Assembly (NCBI GenBank): GCA_016935315.1
Contig: JAFGRD010000078.1
Span: 1 to 64,000, forward strand
Direction of reading: 5' to 3'
Length of the DNA: 64,000 nucleotides
Source: Pirellulales bacterium
GTDB lineage: Bacteria; Planctomycetota; Planctomycetia; Pirellulales; Thermoguttaceae
Shown piece after piece: positions 731 to 6,833 of the stretch (positions within the stretch are counted from its first letter, which is position 1; every line of letters begins with the position of its first letter). The notes beneath the pieces were generated by a model. It saw only the letters and a program-made list of their open reading frames with translations, ran no database searches and had not been told where the DNA came from. The position numbers and the translations under genes are program-made.

Positions 731-2302
731 TCAGCCGAACGCCTTGTCGGGCGGCTGCCGCAGCAGGTAGAACCACAGCCCGACTGCAAAGACCAGCACC
801 GCCAGGCTGATGTTCTGCGAGATGCTCAACCCGGTGTGGAGCACGGCCGCCTCGTCGGTGCGGACGACCTCCAGCAGAAAACGCGTGATCGGGTAAAGCA
901 GCAGCAACAGCAGCGTGGTCTGGCCGTCGCGGCGGCGGAAGGGATCGTAGGCCAAAAGCACCAGGCACAAAAGCAGGGCGTTGATCCCGCTATACGCCTG
1001 GGTCGGGTGGACCGGACGGACCGGATGGTCGTCGGCGCTCGGTCGCTGAAGGTCCCAGGATTTGGGCAATCTGTTGTCCGACGTCGCGATCGAGATCCAA
1101 CTGGCGTGTTCCAGCGCCGCAACGGCATCCTCGACCGAGCCGACCGTCTGGCCGTTGATTTCGGCAATCCGCTGCTTCGGCTTGAGGCCCTGCCGTTGGG
1201 GCGGCGAGCCGGGCCGCACCTCGGCGATGAGCGGCCGGCCTTCCGCGTCGCCGCGGATTTTCAGGCCGTGGAGGAAGGCCCGGCCCTGCCTGACCGCGTC
1301 ACGCGCCTGGCGATCGCGGCTCGGCCAGTCCTCCGCCGGTTCGTCCTCGATGTCCCAGCGGCTGACCCATCGTGGGCGGTCTTCGGTCTTGACCGAGAGG
1401 TCCGTCGCCCTGAGCAACAGACTGGCGGCCAGGCCGACCCGCTCGACCGCATAGCCGTTGATCGCCGTGATCTGCTGGCCGGGCACCAACCCCTGGTGCT
1501 CGGCAGCCGACCCGGGCTGCACCTCCACAATCATCGGCCAGCCGCTGCCGACGCCCTTGATCTTCAGCCCGTGGAGGAACGTCTGGCCGTGTTCGATCTG
1601 GTGGAAATGAACCGGGCTGCCGGTAGGAAACGTCACGGCCCAGGGCGTCTCGCACACGCCGCCGTAGCAGCAGCCGTTGGCCAGGCAGCCGATCCGGCCG
1701 ATCGCCAGACCCAGCACCAGCGAGGGAGCGATCAGATCGCAAACCGCCAGCAGCGGCAGCCGGTAGCGGCGCACGAACGCCAGCAATCCCAGCAGCCCGC
1801 CGAGCAACGAGCCGTAGACGACCAGCCCTCCCTGCGACACGTTGACCATGGCGACCAGAATGGCCGCCAGCCCTTGCTTCTGGTAGACGGGCCAGTACTG
1901 GTCCCGGTACTCGATGACGTAGAACAGCCGAGCGCCGACGATGCCCGGCACGATCATCCAGAAGGCCAACGAGAGAATCAGCTCCGGATCGAGCCCCCGG
2001 CGGCGGGCCCGCCAGGCGGCCAGACCGCACGCTGCGCCGATCGCCACCACGACCATCGTACCGAAGCCGCGGATGGGCAGCCCTCGCGCTTGGCACAGCG
2101 CCGGCAGCAGCCAGTAGATGATCGCCCCGACCAACAACAACAGCGGCACGTAGGCCCAGGTGTCGGCGGTGAACCCCTGACGCCAGGCGAGCCACGCCAG
2201 CAGCAGCAGGCTGCCCAACGTCCAGACGCCCAGCAGCAGCCCGAATCCGAATACGGGAACGCCGGCGATTTCGTGCGGAATGAAGAAGACGGTTGGGAGC
2301 AT
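731..2302 (-). CDS. lgt: Prolipoprotein diacylglyceryl transferase with two inserted PDZ-like domains
   Basis: Lgt transfers diacylglycerol from phosphatidylglycerol to the lipobox cysteine of prolipoproteins in the inner membrane, the first step of lipoprotein maturation. The 523-residue product is nearly twice the usual length (about 260-300). Many hydrophobic segments are visible (for example residues 15-40, 50-70 and 110-130, and again after 440). The Lgt signature region reads GRIGCLANGCCYG near residue 205 and the late HPTQAYSG motif lies near 432. Between them are two related segments, about 243-300 and 345-402. Each begins FLHGLKI(K/R)G and contains PGS..QGL.P.Q.I..ING, typical of PDZ domains. 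The N-terminus also has extra hydrophobic segments. Start is ATG at 2302, with no clear ribosome binding site. It is last in a minus-strand run after folK and panC, 29 bases behind panC. Confidence 0.9.
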   Translation of the reverse strand: MLPTVFFIPHEIAGVPVFGFGLLLGVWTLGSLLLLAWLAWRQGFTADTWAYVPLLLLVGAIIYWLLPALCQARGLPIRGFGTMVVVAIGAACGLAAWRARRRGLDPELILSLAFWMIVPGIVGARLFYVIEYRDQYWPVYQKQGLAAILVAMVNVSQGGLVVYGSLLGGLLGLLAFVRRYRLPLLAVCDLIAPSLVLGLAIGRIGCLANGCCYGGVCETPWAVTFPTGSPVHFHQIEHGQTFLHGLKIKGVGSGWPMIVEVQPGSAAEHQGLVPGQQITAINGYAVERVGLAASLLLRATDLSVKTEDRPRWVSRWDIEDEPAEDWPSRDRQARDAVRQGRAFLHGLKIRGDAEGRPLIAEVRPGSPPQRQGLKPKQRIAEINGQTVGSVEDAVAALEHASWISIATSDNRLPKSWDLQRPSADDHPVRPVHPTQAYSGINALLLCLVLLAYDPFRRRDGQTTLLLLLLYPITRFLLEVVRTDEAAVLHTGLSISQNISLAVLVFAVGLWFYLLRQPPDKAFG

Positions 2303-2331: not shown

Positions 2332-3219
2332 TCAGGCGACAGGTGCCCGGGGGCCAGGAGGTTGAAGCAGACAGTTGTCGATCAGCCGCGTGTTTTCGAT
2401 CTTGACGGCCAGCACCGCCAGGGTCCGCCCGACGATCTCCTCGACCGGTTCGAGCGATTCCGGATCGACCAGGGCCACGTAGTCGATGCGCGCATCCTCG
2501 GCCGTCAGGATCCGCTGCCGCATTTGCCGCACGATTGTCTCGGCGCCGCGTTCGCCCTCGTCGACCAGCGTGGCGGCCAACTGGAGACTCTGCCACAACA
2601 CCAGCGAGCGGGCCCTCGCGGCGGGGCTGAGGTACGCGTTGCGCGAGCTCATCGCCAGCCCGTCCGGCTCGCGGACGATCGGACAGACGCGGATCTGCGT
2701 CGGCACGTCGAGGTCCTCGACCATGTGCCGAACGACCGTCGCCTGCTGGTAGTCTTTCTGTCCGAAATAGGCCACATCGGGAGCCACCATGTTGAGCAGT
2801 TTCAGCACGACGGTCGCCACGCCGCGGAAATGGCCGGGACGGCAACGTCCTTCGAGCGGTTCGGCCACGCCGCCCGGCTCGACCCAGGTCGCGTGGCCGG
2901 GCCGATAGACGTCTTCGCCGGCCGGCGCAAACACCAGCTCGGCGCCGCACCCGGCCAGCGCGTCGAGATCGGCCTGAAGTGTTCGGGGATACCGCTGGAA
3001 ATCCTCGCCGGGCCCGAACTGGCTCGGGTTGACGAAGATCGAGACCACCGTGCAATCGCACTCCGACTTCGACGCCCGCACCAGGCTCAGGTGCCCCTCG
3101 TGCAACGCGCCCATGGTCGGCACGAGGCCGATCCGCCCACGTTGGCCGCGGACCGCGGCGAGACGATCTCGCAGCGAAGCGACGCCGGAGACGAGTTCGG
3201 GCGAAGAGGGGTTGCTCAT
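2332..3219 (-). CDS. panC: Pantothenate synthetase
   Basis: Condenses pantoate and beta-alanine with ATP to give pantothenate, the cytosolic last step of vitamin B5 synthesis and the entry to coenzyme A. The 295-residue protein has the family landmarks in order: the nucleotide-binding TMGALHEGH near residue 26, NPSQFGPGEDF..YPR, FGQKDYQQ in the middle, and SSRNAYL. I start it at ATG 3219 (MSNPSSPEL) rather than at 3300, because the extra upstream residues do not resemble the family and length then matches PanC. It follows the FolK fusion by 94 bases on the same strand. Both lie in pterin/pantoate-related cofactor metabolism, so a cofactor operon is plausible. Confidence 0.94.
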   Translation of the reverse strand: MSNPSSPELVSGVASLRDRLAAVRGQRGRIGLVPTMGALHEGHLSLVRASKSECDCTVVSIFVNPSQFGPGEDFQRYPRTLQADLDALAGCGAELVFAPAGEDVYRPGHATWVEPGGVAEPLEGRCRPGHFRGVATVVLKLLNMVAPDVAYFGQKDYQQATVVRHMVEDLDVPTQIRVCPIVREPDGLAMSSRNAYLSPAARARSLVLWQSLQLAATLVDEGERGAETIVRQMRQRILTAEDARIDYVALVDPESLEPVEEIVGRTLAVLAVKIENTRLIDNCLLQPPGPRAPVA

Positions 3220-3313
3220 GGAAGAACGCTCTGGGGAATCGCAGAAAGAACGAGTTCGGTATCCTTGCCAGAGGAAGGAGGCGCCGCGACCGTGCGCCAA
3301 CCGGCGAGTCCAG

Positions 3314-4357
3314 TTACTGCATCGCGTCGACCGCGGCCAAGACTTCGCCGAGGGTCTGCTCGGGGTCGCCCTGGGCCAGCCGCAACAAGGGGCCCTGGTC
3401 GCGCCGGGTCGCCCGATCGACGATCGCCTGTTGGATCCGTCCGAGTTGCTCCTCGCGAAGACCGAACTCGCAGCGCCGACCGCGACGGCGCACCCGGCGC
3501 AAGAGTTCCTCGGGCGGGGCCTCCAACAGGACGATCAGCTTTGGCCGTACCACGCCGCTGCGCAACTGCTGCCAATGCTGGCAGTAGGCCTGCCGTTGCG
3601 GAAGCGGCAGCCACACCTCGGCAAACGCGGCCGACTGGTCGAACCAGAAGTCGCTGACCGCCAGACGCCGCTCGGACCACTCGGGCAAACCGGCGTCGAG
3701 CCGCCGAGCCCGCTGTTCGGCGAATTCTAACTCCGTCTGCCAGGCGTGAGAAGGCGGATCTGCGTAAAACACGTCCAATCGGCCCAGATCAAGCCGCTCG
3801 GCGATCAGGCGGCCCGAGGTCTCGCGGGCCAGCCGCTCGGCCAACCGGCTCTTGCCGACGCCGATCGAGCCGGTAATCGCCAGGTAGTCGGCGGCCGTGT
3901 CGAGATGCTCCAACAAGCGGGCCATGGTCCATCCGATCGAAGGATGGACCATCGAGCCGGCCACCTCGGCCGCCGGCGCCAACACGAAACGCCGCCAGGC
4001 CATGCGGGGGTGTGGCAGCACCAACGGCGGAGTGTCCAGCACCAACTGGCCGTACAACAGCAAATCGAGGTCGACGGTGCGCGGACCCCAACGCTGCTGG
4101 CGACGGCGGCCCAACTGCGTCTCGATCTGCCGCAACAGCTCGAGCAAGGCCTCCGGGCGGAGCGACGTTTCGACGACGATCACTCGGTTCAGAAATGGCC
4201 CTTGCCCCGAAGGTCCGCCCACGGGGGCCGTTTCCCGTTCGGAACTCCGGGCGGTGACTTGCACGTCGGGGTGTTGTGCAAGCCGCTCAATGGCCTGACT
4301 CAGCGCTTGGCTCCGGTTGCCGAGATTGGAGCCCAGACCGATCAGGCAGGAAGGCAT
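3314..4357 (-). CDS. folK: FolK-deoxynucleoside kinase fusion
   Basis: The N-terminal half (about 1-155) is 6-hydroxymethyl-7,8-dihydropterin pyrophosphokinase, a folate-synthesis enzyme. It shows GLGSNLGNR at the start, PFLNRV, and the signature RWGPRTVDLDLLLYG followed by LPHPRM. The C-terminal half (about 158-347) is a P-loop deoxynucleoside kinase-like domain with GSIGVGKSRLAE (Walker A), a DFWFDQS segment and a basic LID region (LLRRVRRRGRRCE). The two are joined in frame without a visible linker. Fusions of HPPK with a deoxynucleoside kinase are known from other bacteria as I recall, but the reason for the pairing is unclear. Start is ATG at 4357 (MPSCLIGLGSN). It heads the folK-panC-lgt run. 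Confidence 0.9.
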   Translation of the reverse strand: MPSCLIGLGSNLGNRSQALSQAIERLAQHPDVQVTARSSERETAPVGGPSGQGPFLNRVIVVETSLRPEALLELLRQIETQLGRRRQQRWGPRTVDLDLLLYGQLVLDTPPLVLPHPRMAWRRFVLAPAAEVAGSMVHPSIGWTMARLLEHLDTAADYLAITGSIGVGKSRLAERLARETSGRLIAERLDLGRLDVFYADPPSHAWQTELEFAEQRARRLDAGLPEWSERRLAVSDFWFDQSAAFAEVWLPLPQRQAYCQHWQQLRSGVVRPKLIVLLEAPPEELLRRVRRRGRRCEFGLREEQLGRIQQAIVDRATRRDQGPLLRLAQGDPEQTLGEVLAAVDAMQ

Positions 4358-5400: not shown

Positions 5401-5684
5401 CCCACGTGTTGTTGGATCGGCCCAAGTCACTCGGCAGATCGAGATCAACCAATACGATCGCTATATTTAGCGCTGCCTGTCCATGCTTCTTACAATACTC
5501 CAACTACCAATACATCCGATCTTTACAGCGCAAACGAGTCTTTGCGCCAGGGTGATTCAGGAGTTTTTCATCGCAAAGCGAACTTTGCGCTTGAGAGAAC
5601 CGGGGCTGCAATTAAGATGGAGAGAATACGGCGATCAGGAAAGCCGTGTCTTGTCCCCGCCTCGTTTCTGCCGAGGCAAAAGTG

Positions 5685-5772
5685 CCCGCAACAGCTTCAA
5701 CCAGTGCCCGCAACAGCTTCAACCAGAGCCCGCAACAGCTTCAACCAGAGCCCGCAACAGCTTCAACCAGAG
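5685..5772. repeat. Four tandem 22-base repeats just upstream of the sigma-54 activator
   Basis: The unit CCCGCAACAGCTTCAACCAG(T/A)G occurs at 5685, 5707, 5729 and 5751 with almost no variation. Since 22 is not a multiple of three, the array is unlikely to be coding. It ends 11 bases before the activator start codon, so it forms the 5' leader or operator region of that gene. Confidence 0.85.
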
Positions 5773-5783
5773 ATGGAGCCCGA

Positions 5784-6833
5784 ATGAGCCAAGATCTGCT
5801 GATTTCCACCAGTGACGAGTTGGCGGCCGAATTGCCGGCGTATTTCGAAGGATTACCGCGGAGCGTCTTGCGGGGGCAGACGCGGAGCCTGGTGACGTTC
5901 ACGCCGTCGATGTTCGAGGTTCTCGACGAGTTGGAAGTGGCTGCCGCCCACGACGTGACGGTACTGTTCGTCGGCGAAACCGGCTGCGGCAAGACCTACC
6001 TGGCCCGGCTGCTACACGAGTTGTCGCCGCGGCACGCCCAGCGATGCCTGACGGTCGCCTGCGGCGCGCTGCCGCCCGACCTGATCGAGAGCGAGCTGTT
6101 CGGCTACGTCCGGGGCGCGTTCACGGGGGCCGAAGGAAATCGGGAAGGCAAATTCGCCGCCGCCGACGGCGGCACGTTGCTGTTGGACGAGATCGACGTG
6201 CTGGCTCCGGAGCAGCAGGCCAAGCTGCTGCGGGTGATCGAGACGGGCGAGTACGAGCCGGTGGGGAGCAACGACACCCAGACTTCCGACGCGCGGCTGA
6301 TTGCCGCGTCGAACGTCGACCTGGAGCAACTGGTCGAAAGCGGCAAGTTTCGCAAGGACCTGTACTATCGCCTCAACACGCTCCACTTCCATCTGTTGCC
6401 GTTGCGAGAGCGGCCGTGGGACATCGAATACCTCGCGCGGAAGTTCGCTCTGGACCACGGCCGCGCACACCGTATCGAGCTGAGGCACATCGAGCCCGAG
6501 TTTCTCAGTGCCCTGCGACAATACACTTGGCCCGGAAACATCCGGGAGCTGGAAAACGTGATTCGCCGGGCCGTGTTGTACTGCCGCAACGGGGTGCTGG
6601 CGCCGGCCGATTTGCCCAGTGCGCTGCGGCCGTCGGACGGCCAACGTCGTTGCCAGCACGACGAGAGCCGGGCTCCGCGGACGCTGGAAGAGCACGTCGA
6701 TCAGATTGAGCGGCGGATTATCGAGGAATCGCTCCGCCGCCACAATCACCGTCGCACGGTCACGGCCAAGGAGCTCGGGATCAGCCGCGTGACCCTGTAC
6801 AACAAGATGAAGAAGCATGGCATACTCCGCTGA
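5784..6833 (+). CDS. Sigma-54-dependent transcriptional activator without a receiver domain
   Basis: An enhancer-binding protein that uses ATP to remodel sigma-54 RNA polymerase. The 349-residue product has a short N-terminus (about 30 residues) and no receiver, PAS or GAF domain. The AAA+ domain shows Walker A GETGCGKT near residue 63, the sigma-54 contact loop GAFTGA near 111, and Walker B GGTLLLDEID near 131. An arginine-finger region (FRKDLYYRLN) and WPGNIRELENV follow. A Fis-type helix-turn-helix (VTAKELGISRVTLYNKMKKHGI) closes the protein. Start ATG 5784 follows GGAG with a 5-base spacer; upstream codons are repeat DNA. It precedes a sigma-54 promoter at 7028 and the pilus genes, so it probably controls them. 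With no sensory domain, activity may be set by its own expression or by a partner protein. Confidence 0.93.
   Translation: MSQDLLISTSDELAAELPAYFEGLPRSVLRGQTRSLVTFTPSMFEVLDELEVAAAHDVTVLFVGETGCGKTYLARLLHELSPRHAQRCLTVACGALPPDLIESELFGYVRGAFTGAEGNREGKFAAADGGTLLLDEIDVLAPEQQAKLLRVIETGEYEPVGSNDTQTSDARLIAASNVDLEQLVESGKFRKDLYYRLNTLHFHLLPLRERPWDIEYLARKFALDHGRAHRIELRHIEPEFLSALRQYTWPGNIRELENVIRRAVLYCRNGVLAPADLPSALRPSDGQRRCQHDESRAPRTLEEHVDQIERRIIEESLRRHNHRRTVTAKELGISRVTLYNKMKKHGILR

Follow-up and report, generated by a model that had tools for sequence, protein, structure and literature searches.

Prolipoprotein diacylglyceryl transferase (Lgt) has been reported from all bacteria (PMC13251419, partial text). 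The Escherichia coli enzyme (5azb, 5azc) has seven transmembrane (TM) helices and no PDZ domain, and its signature runs from TM4 into a periplasmic head domain (PMC4728403, partial text). This head domain has been named as a determinant of Lgt specificity (PMC13251419, partial text). The acceptor peptide is not included in the solved E. coli structure (PMC4728403, partial text), which leaves it unsettled how Lgt holds its protein substrate. In Mycobacterium tuberculosis, Lgt is enlarged by a long C-terminal extension, reportedly without known homology, rather than by a PDZ domain or a part of the head (PMC13251419, partial text). Membrane enzymes with one or two periplasmic PDZ domains near a buried active site are known among RseP and other site-2 proteases (PMC7728848, partial text).

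Here we describe an Lgt encoded in a 64,000-nucleotide stretch of DNA, which we call the window, from a bacterium of the planctomycete order Pirellulales (assembly GCA_016935315.1, contig JAFGRD010000078.1, positions 1 to 64,000). Like the E. coli enzyme, the window Lgt has the Lgt core fold, the signature at the same position, a predicted periplasmic head after the signature, and equivalents of R143, G154, Y235, R239, E243 and R246. Unlike it, the window Lgt has nine TM helices and PDZ domains, and F, Y, C and C in place of Y26, H103, N146 and E151. Other Lgts of the Planctomycetota (e.g. L056 and L176-L180) share with the window protein, in the relatives viewed, a GR.GC..NGCC-type signature and an HPTQ-type motif, but none of those parsed has a PDZ, and the seven outgroup rows of our tree have 22 residues (78 in L159) at the position of the insert. 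The likeness to RseP is an analogy only, as its catalytic core is unrelated and the window Lgt contains no site-2 protease core. With the PDZ domains of HtrA, DegP, DegQ and CtpB there is a shared fold (Z 10.4 to 12.1, among the matches listed, for the model of the single-PDZ relative L124), but the Lgt PDZ is nested in a lipid transferase without a protease domain. We found no report of a PDZ-bearing Lgt in the open-access literature searched. The main text of a survey of microbial PDZ proteins contains neither "Lgt" nor "diacylglyceryl" (PMC6411480), and the available part of a 2026 Lgt survey mentions neither PDZ nor "Planctomyc" (PMC13251419).

The window lgt gene and its product

The window lgt translates in an open frame to 523 amino acids, in agreement with the length given by a first-pass annotation of this DNA, and the enzyme, though of a known kind, is a genuine variant found across the order. 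The parts of the gene, and the gene next to it, are as follows.

731 to 2302, minus strand: lgt, prolipoprotein diacylglyceryl transferase, 523 aa (ATG start, Pfam, structure model)
2099 to 2302, minus strand: copy A, N-terminal strand and extra TM hairpin, residues 1-68 (degenerate TM1-TM2 duplicate)
1895 to 2098, minus strand: copy B, canonical TM1-TM2, residues 69-136 (the PF01790 match starts at residue 69)
1661 to 1699, minus strand: Lgt signature GRIGCLANGCCYG, residues 202-214 (eight invariant positions in 62 rows)
1319 to 1585, minus strand: PDZ domain 1, residues ~240-328, with an HGLKI loop containing G245 (Pfam, pairwise comparison)
1016 to 1300, minus strand: PDZ domain 2, residues ~335-429 (Pfam, pairwise comparison, strands and helices of the model)
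998 to 1009, minus strand: HPTQ motif, residues 432-435 (alignment conservation)
761 to 1003, minus strand: last three TM helices, residues 434-514, with Y470, R474, E478 and R481 (model and alignment)
2332 to 3300, minus strand: panC, pantoate-beta-alanine ligase, a conserved neighbour and not a functional part (PF02569, 344.6 bits)

The lgt product scored 179.6 bits against the Pfam LGT family PF01790 (cut-off 24.9), which was also matched at E 0.01 by all 62 rows of our Lgt alignment. Besides LGT, a Pfam scan of the protein returned only PDZ families. The score against the NCBIfam equivalog TIGR00544 (lgt) was 101.9 bits, below the cut-off of 118.9, which places the window Lgt outside that model; interruption of the match by the insert may be the cause. 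The invariant signature positions are G202, R203, G205, C206, G210, C211, C212 and G214; within HPTQ, P433 and Q435 are invariant in 29 rows, while in the 62 rows Q435 is invariant and P433 nearly so. Among the viral structures compared, the best was an annotated Lgt of Hyperionvirus (E 0.013). The overall architecture, an Lgt core with a PDZ insert and an extra hairpin, is almost certainly as described here.

We found one PF01790 gene, the window lgt, in this genome (95% complete), and we therefore rejected an ordinary second Lgt as a backup. Family matches to LspA and Lnt are present, and together with the sole Lgt they suggest that the genome encodes a complete lipoprotein pathway. Since no other Lgt was found, the window protein is presumably active. 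Its residues R203, G214, R474, E478 and R481 correspond to R143, G154, R239, E243 and R246 of E. coli, each present in 62 of 62 rows, and Y470 corresponds to Y235. At the position of E. coli Y26, copy B of the window protein has F80. In the 62 rows Tyr occupies this position 60 times in copy B and once in copy A, where Phe predominates (29 rows). Y26 is essential in E. coli Lgt, the Y26F variant being inactive (PMC4728403, partial text). The window protein has Y163, C206 and C211 in place of H103, N146 and E151, of which H103 and N146 also count as essential in E. coli; changes of H103 to Y, W or F, of N146 to C, and of the E151 type are on record in other Lgts (PMC13251419, partial text). The signature cysteines C206, C211 and C212 are invariant in the 62 rows, and cysteines also occur there in some PDZ-free Lgts of the Planctomycetota.

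The first-pass annotation had placed two related PDZ-like segments between the signature, here GRIGC..NGCC, and HPTQ, and each of them passes a Pfam cut-off when taken alone: excised PDZ1 reached 32.0 bits to PF17820 (cut-off 27) and excised PDZ2 34.2 bits to PF00595 (cut-off 23.2). On the whole protein PDZ_6, PDZ and PDZ_2 were all above their cut-offs. Across the 62 rows these families were called in 42, 37 and 33 rows, respectively, a partial coverage which indicates that a good share of the inserts are divergent. The two window copies are 44% identical across 90 residues (E 2e-23). We considered whether the pair could be a chance match, a duplicate made in assembly or a frame error. The frame is open and other genomes agree, and because the copies have diverged, a second PDZ is present in the lgt of four further genomes (G015, G485, G543 and G586) and a single PDZ occurs at this site in most of the order sequences examined, an artefact is very unlikely. 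A donor within the same genome was rejected, since a PDZ search that set the lgt copies aside returned one weak match (E 2.1e-4).

An AlphaFold2 model of the window Lgt, built from 62 sequences, had a mean pLDDT of 85.8 and a pTM of 0.80, with residues 313-327 below a pLDDT of 50. It matched E. coli Lgt 5azb with Z 21.9 over 257 residues (rmsd 3.2 A) and the PDZ domains of HtrA, DegP and CtpB with Z of about 9.7, in a match that spans both PDZ copies. We attribute the latter to the layout of the alignment, in which the PDZ of single-PDZ relatives begins against PDZ1 while its closing strands are set against PDZ2, and the PDZ fold is therefore better judged from a model of L124 (Adhaeretor mobilis HG15A2; 54 sequences). 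This second model (pLDDT 92.4, pTM 0.87) shows nine long helices and a single, complete PDZ (residues 235-319); its Z scores were 21.2 against 5azb and 12.1 against DegQ. The PDZ fold expected from the first reading thus appears in both models, and no other fold was found in its place. The insert, which had been predicted to face the periplasm, is placed after the signature and before the next helix. Homology to the E. coli head domain and the charge of the loops together make it most likely that the insert is periplasmic: Lys and Arg made up a mean of 0.191 per residue in the assigned cytoplasmic loops and 0.067 in the assigned outside loops of the 62 rows, and the two added helices leave the sides of the loops unchanged. 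A cytoplasmic placement was not found.

The two added helices form an extra N-terminal hairpin, which the first-pass annotation did not mention. The N-terminus of the window Lgt is a duplicated TM1-TM2 hairpin, in which the helices of copy B span residues 79-101 and 106-141 in the model. When copies A and B (29 rows each) were compared with hhalign, the probability was 94.8 (E 4.9e-8), while eight control comparisons against other hairpins from within the protein reached 2.63 at most. For the window sequence, the score of copy A against copy B had a z of 7.1 and was reached by 0 of 300 shuffles. From a set of 30 sequences we left out L018; in 24 of the 29 tested the score was reached by at most 3 of 300 shuffles, and the counts were higher in L010 (5), L021 (20), L027 (41), L013 (55) and L025 (132). 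Copy A alone matched no Pfam family at E 0.1. Seven of the eight PDZ-free sequences of the order have it (46-87 bits), L234 being the exception. Among Lgts from outside the order, L179 has a clear copy A (30.4 bits) and L177 a probable one (14.7 bits), while L176, L178 and L188 are uncertain, with two hydrophobic N-terminal segments but no clear copy A match; none of the other 60 of 65 non-order Lgts matched the copy A profile above 0 bits. The presence of copy A both in PDZ-free members of the order and outside it suggests that the hairpin is probably older than the PDZ and can be lost.

Upstream of lgt, on the same strand and 29 bases away, lies panC. In 59 of 80 named loci a panC motif comes to an end no more than 500 bases before lgt; membership of the 80 loci in the order was taken from the match, the titles and the place in the tree, and five of the 20 loci without the motif lie close to the edge of the record. 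The earlier suggestion that the insert couples Lgt to periplasmic quality control found no support in our data, this upstream neighbour included, and a search confined to panC and folK motifs on the upstream side is weak evidence on the matter. Two other genes of the window deserve mention. One is a fused gene (3314-4357, minus strand, 347 aa) in which folK (HPPK, PF01288, 127.2 bits) is followed by a deoxynucleoside-kinase-like part (PF01712, 43.0 bits). The other, at 5646-6833 on the plus strand, encodes a sigma-54-type activator (PF00158) with a Fis-type HTH, and the start of this frame shows, by eye, short repeats of the type ATAST.ARNSFNQ.

Distribution and history of the insert

Of 297 genomes from the order Pirellulales, 296 contain a match to the window Lgt, and among the names in the titles of its relatives are Pirellulales, Pirellulaceae, Thermoguttaceae, Adhaeretor, Botrimarina and Aeoliella. 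One genome of the order (G006, 92% complete) gave no lgt match and only a PDZ-level match (E 3.8e-5), which possibly reflects an assembly gap. To score the insert we used an HMM of 27 order inserts with short flanks, against which outgroups sharing the flanks scored below 5 bits; two HMM pieces in several loci (e.g. L073, L075 and L125) were taken to be a single split PDZ, and only the five sequences named below were scored as having two. Sampling within the order was non-random. It combined the best matches, 40 chosen genomes that were mostly low scorers (30 loci), and 14 targeted stretches, several of which were picked since their match pattern suggested that there was no insert. Among 152 distinct sequences of the order, 136 have one PDZ, five have two, three have a degenerate insert and eight have none, counts which, owing to the targeted sampling, are not population frequencies. 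The pair described in the first-pass annotation is not the typical state. We rejected the idea of a two-PDZ system special to this genome, as Lgts of the order as a rule carry one PDZ.

The degenerate inserts, of 100-113 residues, are those of L209, L213 and L215. Seven of the PDZ-free sequences were fetched from family f8 (7 of 7 in this targeted sample) and the eighth, L235, belongs to another family. For the phylogenetic tree, we collapsed sequences that shared an identical 100-residue stretch, which reduced 165 order and seven outgroup sequences to 159; the partial or broken L072, L103, L107 and L118 and pieces from the window's own genome were left out. The f8 sequences formed a clade (support 1.00) beside L100 (0.92), and L235 grouped with the PDZ-bearing L026 (0.97). 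Because both are nested among PDZ-bearing sequences, the absence of the PDZ in f8 and L235 looks like loss. With the PDZ missing in eight and degenerate in three of the 152 sequences, catalysis in general does not depend on it.

In the rest of the phylum we found a PDZ insert in none of 65 parsed Lgts, many of which were chosen for length and of which only 15 belong to a closely similar subtype (copy B profile above 40 bits). This set is made up of 67 Lgts less L193 and L194, with L051, L055 and L195 unparsed. L193 and L194 are short PDZ-less Lgt-like paralogues from within the order, with frames of 283 and 277 aa, that occur beside a PDZ-bearing Lgt (G049 and G051). A further PDZ-bearing Lgt, L107, is 47% identical to the window protein and comes from a record named Actinobacteria bacterium 21-64-8, which is possibly mis-binned.

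The two-PDZ Lgts are those of the window, L002, L141, L142 and L144. A tree of the PDZ domains grouped PDZ1 and PDZ2 of the window with the single PDZ of L063 (0.90), pointing to a local duplication as the origin of the window pair. In pairwise comparisons, window PDZ2 scored 195 against the single PDZ of L062 and 184 against its own PDZ1. The second PDZ domains of L002, L141 and L142 clustered together (0.94), and L144, from another family, lay apart. These groupings lend modest support to the inference that doubling of the PDZ arose at least three times.

Selection on the insert and its possible roles

Across 21 close pairs that share no sequences, the dN/dS of the PDZ was 0.10-0.48 in the 17 pairs with an estimate, values that are rough since many dS values exceed 1. 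In 16 of 16 comparable pairs the PDZ value was above that of the first core part of Lgt, and in 15 of 17 it was above that of the second. The PDZ is thus constrained, yet less so than the catalytic core. Of 131 aligned PDZ stretches, 98% retain a loop glycine, and in 91% the next residue is L, I, F or M; in the alignment column of G245, Gly is present in 61 of 62 rows. Our reading of the motif is that this residue is the glycine of the carboxylate loop. Purifying selection and the kept glycine favour, but do not prove, a working peptide-binding site over a scaffold, and we consider it rather likely that the PDZ binds a peptide.

The explanation that we prefer, to which we assign a probability of roughly 40%, is that of a native Lgt whose PDZ-enlarged head serves as a docking or selection module for substrate, with the extra hairpin by the entry cleft. 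The enzyme would move diacylglycerol from phosphatidylglycerol onto the lipobox cysteine of preprolipoproteins. Its head domain would have been enlarged early in the Pirellulales by a PDZ of the HtrA/DegQ type, which would later have been doubled in the window protein. This PDZ may bind an extended peptide or a C-terminus, most likely that of the emerging mature lipoprotein, and so could keep the substrate above the active-site cavity. The extra hairpin would lie against TM1, beside the cleft where the substrate is thought to enter. That the lipoprotein substrate is itself the PDZ ligand is a tentative part of this proposal, somewhat less probable than the whole in our estimation. A bolder version, which we regard as doubtful, holds that the PDZ recognises a peptide, either in the emerging lipoprotein itself or in a partner carrying it, and in this way determines which lipobox proteins receive lipid or in what order, while the hairpin reshapes the cleft. 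Head-domain swaps between species alter Lgt function in E. coli (PMC13251419, partial text), so that the head is a plausible site for substrate docking or selection.

Three other explanations can be offered for the insert. First, the PDZ might dock a partner, binding the C-terminus or a loop of another envelope protein, such as a chaperone or a factor for secretion or sorting, and thereby bringing Lgt into a complex. PDZ domains commonly bind C-termini, and the conserved loop glycine and hydrophobic positions would suit such a role, as would the faster evolution of the PDZ relative to the first core part, which a changing partner would allow. No partner gene emerged, however, from the gene neighbourhoods, where panC and folK motifs were searched on the upstream side, and we judge a partner dock to be unlikely.

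Second, the insert could be a structural or neutral elaboration of a variable head, kept since its removal destabilises the enzyme. Head domains differ widely among Lgts (PMC13251419, partial text), and the excess of PDZ dN/dS over the first core part and the degenerate and PDZ-free sequences of the order also speak for this explanation. Against it, the PDZ is kept in most order sequences examined, dN/dS stayed below 0.5 in all 17 estimated pairs alongside the near-universal loop glycine, and a second PDZ has apparently been gained more than once. A purely structural role therefore seems to us less probable still than a partner dock.

Third, by analogy with RseP, the PDZ could be a lid or size filter that shields the opening of the active site and admits suitable substrates without any need for peptide binding; this is the least probable of the three, as the closest PDZ matches are HtrA and DegQ and a pure size filter would make less sense for substrates with large mature parts, even though the layout of a membrane enzyme with a periplasmic PDZ is the same, the RseP PDZ tandem has been described as a size-exclusion filter (PMC7728848, partial text), and RseP-type tandems appear among both our sequence and our structure matches.

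Should the docking module indeed read its substrates and decide their order, the committed first step of lipoprotein maturation would be selective in the Pirellulales, and this Lgt would be, within the literature searched, the first lipoprotein transferase with a substrate-reading domain of its own. More generally, the architecture of the Pirellulales Lgt hints that lipoproteins may be selected or positioned in this order in a way unlike that of E. coli. A known peptide-binding fold in the head of Lgt, kept in most of the sequences examined and sometimes doubled or lost, amounts to a natural experiment on substrate recognition, in which PDZ-bearing and PDZ-free Lgts can be directly compared within one order.
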